Of a DNA stretch of 64,000 nt, positions 1 to 4,719 are shown piece by piece. The notes beneath the pieces are model-generated. The model saw only the letters and a list, made by a program, of their open reading frames with translations, did not search any database and was not told where the DNA came from. The stretch spans positions 1 to 64,000 of the forward strand of contig JASBSN010000017.1 of the NCBI GenBank assembly GCA_030148915.1, given 5' to 3'. The position numbers and the translations under genes are program-made. Source of the stretch: Thiogranum sp. (GTDB lineage Bacteria > Pseudomonadota > Gammaproteobacteria > DSM-19610). The stretch's first letter is position 1; every line of letters begins with the position of its first letter.

Positions 1-138
1 GGACGCAGGATCGGCAATGACGTGCTCGTCACCAGCGGTATCCGGCCCGGCGACATGGTCGTGACCGAGGGGCAATTGCGCGTCCAGCCTGGCGCCGAGG
101 TCAAGGTCGCCGCGCCGGCGACGAAAGGGGCACGCTGA
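1..138 (+). CDS. C-terminal end of RND efflux periplasmic adaptor (MFP), partial
   Basis: The window opens inside an open frame that ends in TGA at 136-138, leaving 45 residues. They read as the last beta strands of a membrane-fusion adaptor (a GIRPGDMVV segment followed by EGQLRVQPG). Such adaptors link an inner-membrane RND pump to an outer-membrane channel. The stop lies one base before the ATG of the pump gene, so the two are co-translated. Codon choice matches the first part of the pump gene rather than the rest of the window. The call rests on the short tail plus context. Confidence 0.75.
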   Translation, partial: GRRIGNDVLVTSGIRPGDMVVTEGQLRVQPGAEVKVAAPATKGAR

Positions 139-139
139 C

Positions 140-3100
140 ATGAACGCCGACAGGGCCTTCACCGATATTTTCATCCGCCGTCCGATATTGTCGGTGGTGG
201 TCAGTCTCCTCATTTTGCTGGTTGGACTGGCTGCGCTGTTCAGCCTGCCGGTCCGGCAATATCCGAAGATGGAAAGCGCGACGATCACCATCGACACGGC
301 ACTGCCGGGCGCGACGCAGGATGTGATGCAGGGCTTCGTCACCACACCGATCGCGCAGGCGATCGCGACGGCGAACGGCATCGAATATCTGACCTCCACC
401 TCCAGCCAGGGCAAGAGCCATATCGCCGCAAAGCTGGTGTTGAACGCCAATGCCGACCGGTCCATGACCGAAATTCTGGCCAAGGTGCAGCAGGTCAAAT
501 ATCGCCTGCCCAGCGGCGTCACCGACCCCGTCATCAGCAAGATCACCGACGGCGCGTCGGCGATCCAATATGTCGCCTTCACCAGTGATCGGTTGCAACC
601 TTCGCAGATCGCCGATTTCGCGACCCGCGTGGCGCAGCCGCTCATCACCTCCATTTCCGGCGTCGCGTCGGCGGAAATCAGCGGCGGCGCGCCGCTTGCC
701 ATGCGCATCTGGGTTGATCCGGTGAAATTGACCGCGCGGGGCCTGACGGCGGGCGATGTCGCCAACGCCCTGCGCGCCAACAACGTCCAGGCGTCGCCGG
801 GGCAGCTGAAGGGCGCCAGCACCGCGATCAACATCACCGCCGCGACCGACCTGCGCGATGTGGCGGCTTTTCGCGACATGACCCTCAAGAGCGGTGACGG
901 CGGCCTGGTGAAGCTGGGGGATGTCGCGACCGTAGAGATGGGTGGCCAGAATTACGATGTCGGCACGATCTCCTCGGGCAAGCGGGCGGTGTTCATCGCC
1001 ATTTCGCCCACGCCCGACGGCAATCCGTTGGAAATCGTGAAGGCGGTGCAGGATCTGCTGCCCGGCATCCAGCGGGTCGCGCCGCCCAGCATCCATGTGA
1101 GCAACCAGTTCGACGTGGCCCATTTCGTCAATGCGTCGATCGAGGAAGTCGAACATACGCTGGTCGAGGCTATCCTGATCGTCGTGATCGTGATCTTCCT
1201 GTTCCTGGGGTCGCTTCGCGCCGTCGTCATTCCCATCGTCACCATTCCGCTGTCGCTGCTGGGCACGGCGGCGCTGATGCTGGCCTTCGGCTTTTCCTTC
1301 AACCTGCTGACCTTGCTCGCCATGGTGCTGGCCATCGGGCTGGTGGTCGATGACGCGATTATTATCGTCGAGAATGTGCACCGGCATATCGAGGCGGGCG
1401 AGAGCCGCGCCCGGGCGGCGCTGATCGGCGCTCGCGAGCTGGCGTTGCCGGTCATCGCCATGACCACCACCCTGATCGCGGTGTACGCGCCGATCGGTTT
1501 CATGGGCGGACTGGTAGGCACGCTATTCACCGAATTCGCCTTCACCCTGGCCGGTGCGGTGCTGGTCTCGGGGGTTGTCGCGCTGACCCTCTCGCCGATG
1601 CTCTCTGGCAGGGTCCTCAAGCCGCACGGCCAGCAGGGGCGTTTCGAGCAGTGGCTGGAAGTGCGCTTTGAGCGTCTGGCGGCGGCTTATCAGCGCCGCT
1701 TGCACGGTACCCTTGAGGCGCTGCCGGTAACGCTGCTGTTTGCCGCGGCGATATTGGTGTCGATCTTTTTCATGTTCGTTACCAGTAAAAGCGAACTGGC
1801 GCCGGTGGAGGACCAGAGCATTCTGTTTTTTCAGGCGACAGCGCCGCAGACGGCGACTTTGGAGTACAACGAGGCGTATACGCGACAGATACAGCAGGCG
1901 TTCAGCAGCGTGCCCGAATACCATGAAAGTTTTTTCCTGCTGGGGCGCGGCGAGCCGACCACCACTTTCGGCGGTTTCAAAATGGAGCAGCCCGCGCAGC
2001 GCTCGCGCTCGCAGATGGAGGTGCAACCGGAGATTCAGGCCAAGCTGGCGAACATCGCCGGCTTCCAGATAGCGGTGTTCCCGCGGCCCAGTCTGCCCGG
2101 CTCCGGCGGCGGTTTCCCGGTGCAGTTCGTGATGACCGGCGATGCCGACTACAAACAGCTCGATACCCTGGCCGATCAGTTGATCGGCAAGGCCATGGGC
2201 AGCGGACGGTTCATGTTCCTGATGAAAGATCTGCAGTATTCCCGCCCGCGCACCACGTTGGAAATCGACCGCGACCGGGCCGGTGATCTGGGGATCAGTA
2301 TGGCCGATATCGGGCGCAACCTGGCGACTTTGCTCGGTGGCAATTACGTCAACCGCTTCAGCCTGGAAGGGCGCAGCTACAAGGTGATCCCCCAGGTGGG
2401 ACGTGAATTCCGTCTGCAGCCCGAAGCCCTGAAAGATTACTACATCCGCCCGGGATCCGCCGATCTGATCAAGCTCGACGCTAGTGCGGGCGAGTCGCGT
2501 TCAGGCGCTCAGAGTAGCCTGGTACCGCTGGCCTCGTTCATCCATTTCAAGAATACAGTCGAGCCCAACCAACGCACGCAGTTTCAACAGTTGAACTCCC
2601 TGACCCTGCAGGGCGTGATGGCGCCGGGTGTGACGCTGGGCGATGCGCTCGGCTTCCTGGAAAACAGCGCCCGCGATCTGTTCCCGCGCGGTTACACCTG
2701 GGATTACTCGGGTCAGTCGCGGCAGTTTGCCCGCCAGGGCAGTGCGCTGGTGGTGACCTTTTTTCTGTCGATCCTGGTCATCTATCTGGTGCTCGCCGCG
2801 CAATTCGAGAGTTGGCGCGATCCACTGACCATTCTGGTGTCCGTGCCGATGTCGATAGCCGGCGCGCTGGCCTTCATTACCTTGGGCTTCGCCACCATTA
2901 ATATCTATACCCAAGTCGGATTGATCACGCTGATAGGACTGATCGCCAAAAACGGCATTCTGATAGTGGAGTTTGCCAACCAGTTGCAGATCAGCGAGGG
3001 GCTGAGCAAGCGCCAGGCCGTGGAACGGGCCGCAGCCATTCGTCTGCGACCGATTCTGATGACCACCGTATCGATGATTGTCGCCATGGTGCCGCTGCTG

Positions 3101-3289
3101 TTGGCGAGCGGCCCGGGTGCGGTAAGCCGTTTTCACATCGGCCTGACCATTGCCACCGGCCTGGGCATCGGCACGTTGTTCACTTTGTTTGTGGTGCCCG
3201 CGGTATACCTGCTGCTGGGACGCGACCACCGCCGCGATGAAGCGACCGAAGACCCGTCGCCGTTACCAGATCGCGCCGAGCCCATCTGA
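140..3289 (+). CDS. RND-family multidrug efflux permease (AcrB/MexB/MuxB type)
   Basis: Inner-membrane proton-driven pump of 1049 residues, full length for hydrophobe/amphiphile exporters. A first transmembrane segment lies near residues 13-32, then a large periplasmic porter domain, TM2-7 (about 335-540) with the paired acidic residues D404 and D405 in TM4 (GLVVDDAIIIVENV) expected for proton relay, a second porter domain, and TM8-12 from about 870. Start is the ATG one base after the adaptor stop. Oddity: up to about base 1400-1480, Gly is almost never GGT and Tyr is mostly TAT. Downstream GGT is common and Tyr is mostly TAC, as in the rest of the window. The protein reads through the join without a break. 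Drug specificity cannot be predicted. Confidence 0.93.
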   Translation: MNADRAFTDIFIRRPILSVVVSLLILLVGLAALFSLPVRQYPKMESATITIDTALPGATQDVMQGFVTTPIAQAIATANGIEYLTSTSSQGKSHIAAKLVLNANADRSMTEILAKVQQVKYRLPSGVTDPVISKITDGASAIQYVAFTSDRLQPSQIADFATRVAQPLITSISGVASAEISGGAPLAMRIWVDPVKLTARGLTAGDVANALRANNVQASPGQLKGASTAINITAATDLRDVAAFRDMTLKSGDGGLVKLGDVATVEMGGQNYDVGTISSGKRAVFIAISPTPDGNPLEIVKAVQDLLPGIQRVAPPSIHVSNQFDVAHFVNASIEEVEHTLVEAILIVVIVIFLFLGSLRAVVIPIVTIPLSLLGTAALMLAFGFSFNLLTLLAMVLAIGLVVDDAIIIVENVHRHIEAGESRARAALIGARELALPVIAMTTTLIAVYAPIGFMGGLVGTLFTEFAFTLAGAVLVSGVVALTLSPMLSGRVLKPHGQQGRFEQWLEVRFERLAAAYQRRLHGTLEALPVTLLFAAAILVSIFFMFVTSKSELAPVEDQSILFFQATAPQTATLEYNEAYTRQIQQAFSSVPEYHESFFLLGRGEPTTTFGGFKMEQPAQRSRSQMEVQPEIQAKLANIAGFQIAVFPRPSLPGSGGGFPVQFVMTGDADYKQLDTLADQLIGKAMGSGRFMFLMKDLQYSRPRTTLEIDRDRAGDLGISMADIGRNLATLLGGNYVNRFSLEGRSYKVIPQVGREFRLQPEALKDYYIRPGSADLIKLDASAGESRSGAQSSLVPLASFIHFKNTVEPNQRTQFQQLNSLTLQGVMAPGVTLGDALGFLENSARDLFPRGYTWDYSGQSRQFARQGSALVVTFFLSILVIYLVLAAQFESWRDPLTILVSVPMSIAGALAFITLGFATINIYTQVGLITLIGLIAKNGILIVEFANQLQISEGLSKRQAVERAAAIRLRPILMTTVSMIVAMVPLLLASGPGAVSRFHIGLTIATGLGIGTLFTLFVVPAVYLLLGRDHRRDEATEDPSPLPDRAEPI

Positions 3290-3357
3290 GATGAACCGGC
3301 TGCGGTCCGCCTCGACCTCGGTGCAGGCGGGTACCCGCGGTATTCTCCGTTTTCCCC

Positions 3358-4719
3358 TCAGTTGGAGAAAAAGCTGGTACGTTTTGTATCTTGATTTTGT
3401 TCCATGAAGAGAATATAGGCCGCACCGGCGTCGGTCTGATCGTCGTCATCGAACGGCGCACCGACGGCGATATCCTCGCTTCGGTCACCGTTGAGATTAC
3501 CCAATCCGGCGAGGGCTGCGCCGAAGTGGTCGCCGTCGTTCAGGTTTTCTTTGAACTTACCGTTTTGCTGGGAAATTTTTGCCTCGCCGTTCACTTTACC
3601 GTTGACCTTCAGGAACAGGATCCAGAGCGCGCCGCGATCGGCGCCGCCGTCGTCGTCGAGCGGCGTGCCCACACCCAGATCGACAACACCGTCGCCGTCC
3701 AGGTCGCTCACTTGGGCCAGTGCGCTGCCGAAACGTCCGTCGTCGCTCAGCGTGCCCTCGAAACCGCTTTCGCCCTGGGCGATGCGCCGTTGGTCTCTGA
3801 CTGTGCCGTCACGGTTCATGAGCAGGATCCACACTGCGCCGCGGTTGCTGCCGCCGCTGTCGTCCTGGGGCGCGCCCACGGCCAGGTCGGGGATACCGTC
3901 GGCGTCCAGATCACCGATGCCGGCCACGGCAGCGCCGAACCGATCGTCGGCGTTCAGATCGGCCTTGAAGCCACCGTCGCCGTCACCGATTCTGACGGCG
4001 CGGCGCGAGGTACCGTCGCTGTTCATGAACAGTATCCATACCGCGCCCTTGGCGACGCCGTTGTGCTGGGTGAGCGGCGCGCCCACCGCCAGATCGCGGA
4101 TGCCGTCGCCGTCTAGGTCGCCGAGATCGGCTACCGCGGCGCCAAATTGCTCGCCGTCGTTGAGGTTGCCGGCGAAACCGCCGCTCTGGTCGGAAATCTT
4201 GGCGCTGCTCGCCAGCGTGCCATCCGCTTTCAGCAACAGGATCCACAGCGCGCCGCGGTCATCGCCGCCGTCGTCGTCCAGTGGAGCGCCGGCCGCCAGA
4301 TCGCGCACGCCGTCGCCGTTCAAATCGCCGATACCCGCCAAGGCGCTGCCGAACTGGTCGTTATTGTCCAGGTCACCCGTGAAGCCGCCGGTGCCGTCAG
4401 CGATTTTCGTGGCGATATCGACGCTGCCGTTGCTGTTCATGAACAGGATCCACAACGCGCCGCGGTTCTCACCCTGGTCGTCATCGCCGGGGGCGCCTAC
4501 TGCCAGGTCGATGACCCCATCGCCTTCCAGGTCGCCAAGATTGGCCAGCGCCGCACCCCAGTTGTCGGTGTCCTTGAGGCGGCCGTTGAAATTGCCTTTC
4601 TTGGCGGAGACTTTTTGCGCCGCCTCCACCTGCGTGGTTGTGGTAACTTCCGTACACTGAGACCCGCCGAGCAGCAGGTACAGGACGGGGATGGATGTCA
4701 GGGTGAGAGAACGTTTCAT
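3358..4719 (-). CDS. Exported FG-GAP (integrin-like) beta-propeller protein
   Basis: A 453-residue protein made almost entirely of six tandem repeats, five of 69 residues and a shorter sixth. Each has an FG-GAP core (for example FGSALAGIGDLNGDG) and a DxxGDGxxD calcium loop, followed by VGAP and a GALWILF strand. This arrangement builds an alpha-integrin-like propeller. The N-terminus has a basic start and hydrophobic core (residues 5-19). C22 follows, but Gln at -1 does not fit a lipobox, so it may be a plain secreted protein. The sixth repeat has a degenerate calcium loop (NLNGDRSED). The high regularity of the repeats also produces long open frames on the opposite strand. Role unknown; adhesion or calcium-dependent surface binding is a guess from the fold. 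Confidence 0.85.
   Translation of the reverse strand: MKRSLTLTSIPVLYLLLGGSQCTEVTTTTQVEAAQKVSAKKGNFNGRLKDTDNWGAALANLGDLEGDGVIDLAVGAPGDDDQGENRGALWILFMNSNGSVDIATKIADGTGGFTGDLDNNDQFGSALAGIGDLNGDGVRDLAAGAPLDDDGGDDRGALWILLLKADGTLASSAKISDQSGGFAGNLNDGEQFGAAVADLGDLDGDGIRDLAVGAPLTQHNGVAKGAVWILFMNSDGTSRRAVRIGDGDGGFKADLNADDRFGAAVAGIGDLDADGIPDLAVGAPQDDSGGSNRGAVWILLMNRDGTVRDQRRIAQGESGFEGTLSDDGRFGSALAQVSDLDGDGVVDLGVGTPLDDDGGADRGALWILFLKVNGKVNGEAKISQQNGKFKENLNDGDHFGAALAGLGNLNGDRSEDIAVGAPFDDDDQTDAGAAYILFMEQNQDTKRTSFFSN

Follow-up and report, generated by a model that had tools for sequence, protein, structure and literature searches.

An RND efflux pump gene at a contig end of a draft genome is very probably an assembly chimera

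Introduction

Two described systems come closest to the locus reported here. In short-read metagenome assembly, chimeric contigs arise where the graphs of related species share k-mers, as set out in one review (PMC7299287). In Neisseria gonorrhoeae, mosaic mtrD alleles are RND pump genes pieced together from more than one species; the exchange there was between species of a single genus, and transformation was used to test it (PMC6083905).

We analysed a window of 64,000 bases, the first part of the 80,071-base contig C27 of draft assembly G000, in which base 1 of the window is the end of the contig. The first complete gene of the window encodes an RND pump, and a preliminary description of this DNA had reported a codon-usage break inside it and had offered two possible causes, a chimeric contig or recombination of one pump gene with another. 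The break is real, both by a codon model and by homology. Judged from sequence comparison, the pump gene at 140-3289 is very probably an assembly chimera and not one gene in the organism. The locus is like the chimeric contigs of the review in that sequence of different species stands joined in one contig, perhaps where their assembly graphs share k-mers, but the review speaks of related species and here the sources are distant lineages with a common conserved gene segment (PMC7299287). It also differs from them in that one native gene is split, with two foreign sources joined in frame, giving two plausible full-length hybrids. In contrast to mtrD, the exchanged halves agree in only about half of their residues, and neither native half has been lost, the two lying at the ends of two contigs.

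The G000 assembly comprises 135 contigs and 3.22 Mb, and its contig number suggests a metagenome bin. Its completeness of 99.0% and contamination of 0.7% raise no alarm, although foreign tails of 1-2 kb are hardly detectable by such figures.

Results

Two origins within one pump gene

The features at the start of the window are collected in Table 1. When the two parts of the pump were compared separately with other pumps (loci L116, L118 and L127-L130 being partial in this comparison), the part before 1319 was 88.7% identical in protein and 85.1% in DNA to the sphingobial locus L127 and at most 49.4% identical in protein to 11 pumps of the host's own genus. The part from 1358 onward was 86.9% identical in protein to the same-genus locus L009, at most 47.5% to eight sphingomonad pumps and at most 53.0% to a third group of pumps. 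A sliding identity comparison gave the same swap of origin across one point. The sphingomonad-like source that the preliminary description had proposed for the first part is thus confirmed by homology.

Table 1. Features at the start of the window (positions in the window).
Feature	Position	Strand	Basis or remark
Sphingobial periplasmic adaptor gene, 3' end (last 45 codons and stop)	1..138	+	foreign tail; starts at contig base 1
Pump gene 5' part, of sphingomonad (Sphingobium-like) origin	140..1318	+	foreign tail; identity comparison
Junction interval, conserved segment FSFNLLTLLAMVLAIGLVVDDAI	1289..1360, most likely 1319-1360	+	site-by-site base counts
Host's own pump gene, 3' part (AcrB-type RND permease)	1361..3289	+	identity and downstream gene order
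FG-GAP repeat protein gene	3358..4719	-	Pfam FG-GAP; adjoins the pump in G004 and G014 too

Separate searches with the two halves, a check that the preliminary description had proposed, led to sphingomonads for the first and to the host genus for the second. Genome contigs searched with the first half gave at least 581 confirmed candidates among 591 candidate stretches; among the best 80 of these, which we used as loci L020-L099, sphingomonads ranked top, with a Sphingobium sp. 66-54 MAG at 81%. When 99 loci were ranked against the first 440 residues, the four top matches after the window itself came from Novosphingobium, Sphingobium and Sphingopyxis (77-81%). At the DNA level, positions 10-1356 were 84% identical to genome G843. 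The 594 residues from residue 456 onward placed the 11 same-genus loci (L009-L019) as the top 11, at 78-88%, in a ranking over 99 loci of which L020-L099 had been picked with the first half and the others came from other searches. That the second half comes from the host genus is also supported by the same-genus pump comparison and by gene order.

The adaptor remnant is foreign in the same way. Over its 45 residues it is 84% identical to L127 and 51-76% identical to eight further sphingomonad entries, which are seven distinct loci since L126 and L020 are the same place. It has no significant match on positions 1-20,000 of contig C2, which carries the host's own adaptor, and it is too short to give a Pfam match.

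The missing native half lies at the end of another contig

An own-genome search located the host's 5' half elsewhere. On the minus strand of contig C2, positions 1544-3301 encode 588 residues that match the N-terminal side of the pump of G004, a relative, at 82%, and before its junction the C2 pump is 92.0% identical in protein to L009. Its C-terminal part has a different nearest relative, with 69.5% identity in protein to locus L116 of the third group, 54.5% to the host genus and 48.5% to sphingomonads; the members of the third group nearest to it are pumps from the same class as the host. This foreign tail is about 2.1 kb long (C2:1-2120) and reaches base 1 of C2. On C2, then, the adaptor and the 5' half of the pump are native and its 3' half is foreign; on C27 the adaptor end and the 5' half are foreign and the 3' half is native. 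The C2 switch is less sharp than that on C27: in window numbering, C2 is host-type until 1269 and third-type at 1340-1342, and a host-type base reappears at 1376 (11 of 11 same-genus loci, 0 of 4 third-type loci).

Two other readings of the C2 pump were tried and dropped. An unrelated paralogue had been suggested by a 54% match, and the N-terminal part then proved to be native. A sphingobial C-terminal part, as expected from a simple swap by a single reciprocal crossover, does not agree with the third group being nearest and with the 48.5% identity to sphingomonads.

Several observations concern the contig ends themselves. The C2 end (C2:1-2120) appears as a second chimera in the same genome, with a pump 3' half from a third lineage. 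Bases 2-115 of C2 hold 37 codons and a stop that resemble a transposase end; positions 1-211 of C2 occur nowhere else in G000 and matched none of the plasmid records. Searches of the genome gave 14 RND pump matches, some of which are pieces of one gene. One of the RND pieces (G000:C71:1745-3508, locus L131) is a 588-codon C-terminal part of another pump, cut off where contig C71, 3.5 kb in length, ends. This piece is CusA-like by eye, and its contig apparently ends just after the same conserved segment; the assembly may have broken at the segment there too, and no foreign tail was seen.

Relatives place both contigs around one pump

We compared the genes next to both contig ends with those of relatives. 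On contig C5 of G004, 12 of the 13 ORFs from the first 20 kb of C27, the pump included, match in one unbroken order from 36,897 down to 16,297. The same contig has matches for 15 of the 17 ORFs in C2:1-20000. Fourteen of these run in order from 36,897 up to 55,497, with the pump and the adaptor among them; one weak match is out of place, and two ORFs have no match. A single pump of host type therefore stands between the C27-type and the C2-type genes in G004, and G014 has the same arrangement on its contig C106, as far as that 21-kb contig goes. The FG-GAP gene downstream of the pump is 75% identical in protein to G004:C5:35478-36836 and 73% identical to its counterpart in G014. In the stretches examined from G008, G013 and G018, only the pump and the adaptor were matched, so that the gene order is common to two of the five relatives examined; the FG-GAP gene has no match in those three stretches.

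Because G004 and G014 place both gene sets around one pump, C2 and C27 are most likely neighbours that were broken inside one pump gene.

The junction falls in a conserved segment

Base counts at individual sites set the limits of the C27 junction. Bases up to 1288 are of the sphingomonad type, 1288 itself being shared by all 8 sphingomonads and by none of the 11 same-genus loci. From 1361 on they are host-type, base 1361 being found in 0 of 8 sphingomonads and 10 of 11 same-genus loci, which gives firm limits of 1289-1360. The inner limit at 1318 is a single synonymous base, found in 4 of 8 sphingomonads and in 0 of 11 same-genus loci. The break had previously been put at about 1480; the true site lies some 120-160 bases upstream, within 1289-1360 and most likely from 1319 on. 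Its location inside a conserved pump segment held, as the whole interval is within the segment of Table 1. In terms of AcrB, this segment would be TM4 and its DD the proton-relay motif.

The longest exact match between positions 1251-1450 of C27 and the C2 pump is a 20-mer at 1319-1338, inside both junction intervals. It is present in 18 of 132 loci, or in 12 loci once six copies from C27 and C2 are left out. Among the 12 are L127 and L128, which are the sphingobial loci closest to the window, and three of the 11 loci from the host genus. It is missing from the third-group loci L115-L119 (0 of 5), and of the 8 sphingomonad loci compared 6 lack it. The best matches to the two parents are at 84% (in DNA) and 71%, and the stretch that the parents themselves have in common may be of another length.

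Exact stretches of this length are frequent at the site even between distant pumps. Among 89 full-length pumps, 3002 pairs are less than 65% identical in protein; 1284 of these share an aligned exact stretch of at least 20 bases, and in 581 of the 1284 one such stretch is centred at 1290-1400. When aligned exact matches of at least 20 bases were counted over all 3002 pairs in bins of 60 bases, 547 fell at 1320-1379 and 224 in the next bin; the count is somewhat biased in favour of pumps that are similar at this site, in that one of the six peptide patterns used to pick loci lies at 1370-1393.

The reading frame is intact over both joins, on C27 and on C2. This is as in a real recombinant, but joins at homologous k-mers keep the frame too.

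A living hybrid is improbable

Real homologous recombination would have replaced the host adaptor and pump 5' half by a Sphingobium copy, creating a working hybrid pump. Such an event would account for an in-frame join at a conserved motif and for the sphingobial adaptor end that accompanies the sphingobial pump half, and natural mosaic RND genes are known, Neisseria mtrD being one (PMC6083905). Yet the original allele was not replaced: the native adaptor and native 5' half remain on C2, with neighbours ordered as in G004. Nor is the foreign segment flanked by host sequence on both sides, as that of a natural mosaic would be; it has no far boundary, runs to contig base 1 and there leaves the contig. 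The exchanged halves are moreover about 49% identical in protein, unlike the known case within one genus. We consider recombination very improbable. The same holds, to the same degree, for a broader version in which the conserved DD segment would be a real recombination hot spot and the species would carry two true hybrid pumps, one with a Sphingobium front and one with a third-lineage back. There is a small probability that one hybrid is genuine.

A rearrangement in the living genome, by inversion or by integration through crossing-over between two resident pumps, would leave reciprocal hybrids on C2 and C27. There are indeed two hybrids, each with one native half and each broken near the same motif, in a genome with several RND pump genes. 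A single crossover, however, gives the halves of one partner, and the two tails differ, one being sphingobial and the other from the third group, so that two partners are needed. Neither partner was found in the family search of 20 genomes, and both tails stop at contig ends. Rearrangement is for us more improbable still than recombination.

In that family search, which covered 20 genomes with the host's own among them, nothing besides the locus itself matched the sphingobial N-terminal part at more than 49% (limit 1e-100), and for the C2-type C-terminal part the highest identity elsewhere was 55% (limit 1e-150); short fragments would be missed at these limits. Searches for the parents themselves reached further. 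For the sphingobial parent, 19 of 397 genomes of the G056 family matched at 1e-100, with a best identity of 80%, and 12 of 94 genomes of the G056 genus matched, with a best identity of 84%; no near-identical sequence was found in either set. For the parent of the C2 end, 51 of 369 host-class genomes (the host's own included) matched at 1e-50, the best outside itself at 71%. Plasmid records matched positions 1-1500 of the window at 76% in the best long match, with 16 of 460 records having their best piece at 80-90%, and none covers 80% of window positions 1485-3289 or of the C2 end.

Codon usage agrees with the switch and locates it poorly

The codon counts that first drew attention to the gene proved to be correct. 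Exact counting gave GGT for 2 of 29 Gly and TAT for 4 of 5 Tyr at 140-1399, and GGT for 11 of 53 Gly and TAC for 11 of 16 Tyr (TAT for 5 of 16) at 1481-3286. Taken singly, the GGT and the TAT contrast are both weak (Fisher p = 0.12 in either case). The adaptor remnant had been said to share the first pattern; with GGT for 1 of 7 Gly and no Tyr in frame 1, its codons are too few to carry this, and its sphingobial nature is established by homology instead.

When all synonymous codons were scored by log-likelihood ratio against a Sphingobium codon model, built from 11 genes of one 20-kb stretch with the pump excluded, positions 140-1318 scored +0.020 per codon towards Sphingobium. This exceeds every one of 237 overlapping 393-codon stretches from 33 other genes of the window, for which the maximum was -0.013, and positions 1358-3286 scored -0.067 per codon. 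The contrast is small, in that the 11 Sphingobium genes, each left out in turn, themselves score -0.011 to +0.068. Codon usage, for which the preliminary description had recommended a sliding-window check, places the break poorly: the best changepoint was at 1651, as against 1289-1360 by homology. As a detector of the second chimera codon usage also failed, the C2 tail scoring -0.058 and being indistinguishable from host genes (median -0.055). Ordinary codon variation inside one native gene without any join, to which the two singly non-significant codon counts (Fisher p = 0.12 each) would be congenial, has a negligible probability and is already refuted by the change across one point of the host-genus identity from 49.4% to 86.9% and of the sphingomonad identity from 88.7% to 47.5%.

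Both hybrids look like ordinary pumps

Profile scores are of no use as a chimera detector here, as hybrids and uniform pumps score alike. Both hybrids are full-length on Pfam ACR_tran (PF00873), with 851.5 bits for C27 (residues 8-1026) and 901.8 bits for C2 against a cut-off of 28, and this profile is blind to the join. For NCBIfam RND_permease_2 the scores are 1137.9 (C27 hybrid), 1194.9 (C2 hybrid) and 1159.8-1199.5 (four uniform pumps), all below the cut-off of 1250; the C27 hybrid lies just 22 bits below the lowest uniform pump.

Discussion

Of the two causes first offered for the break, the contig chimera is favoured, since the native 5' half persists at the C2 end with a different foreign tail. 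What carries this reading is that a native gene is split in two and that each half has a different foreign tail, in frame, running to a contig end. As in a chimeric contig, two taxonomic origins meet in a sharp switch within 1289-1360, and the displaced native part is found at the C2 end, among genes arranged as they are in G004 and G014.

An assembly chimera could have formed as follows. The sample would have contained several bacteria whose RND pumps are homologous and have short runs of identical sequence in common within the conserved DD segment, and both foreign donors were presumably among them. One assembler path would have gone from a Sphingobium-like 5' half into the host 3' half, giving contig C27, and another from the host 5' half into the 3' half of a third lineage, giving contig C2. 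Both paths would have halted soon past the wrong join, so that the foreign tails, of about 1.3 kb and about 2.1 kb, end at contig ends. The assembler is thereby presumed to be the cause of the hybrids. The true host gene would be an ordinary AcrB-type pump between the C2 genes and the C27 genes, as in G004 and G014.

The main value of the case is that it illustrates clearly how chimeric efflux genes can look in a draft genome. Such hybrid genes pass as full-length, well-scoring efflux proteins in draft genomes and could be misread as resistance genes that had been transferred horizontally or had recombined. A simple test is to ask whether the end of some other contig carries the missing native half next to conserved neighbouring genes. 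Among the 89 pumps compared, exact 20-mers were shared most often in the conserved DD segment, which suggests itself as the place in RND pump genes where such hybrids are to be expected.
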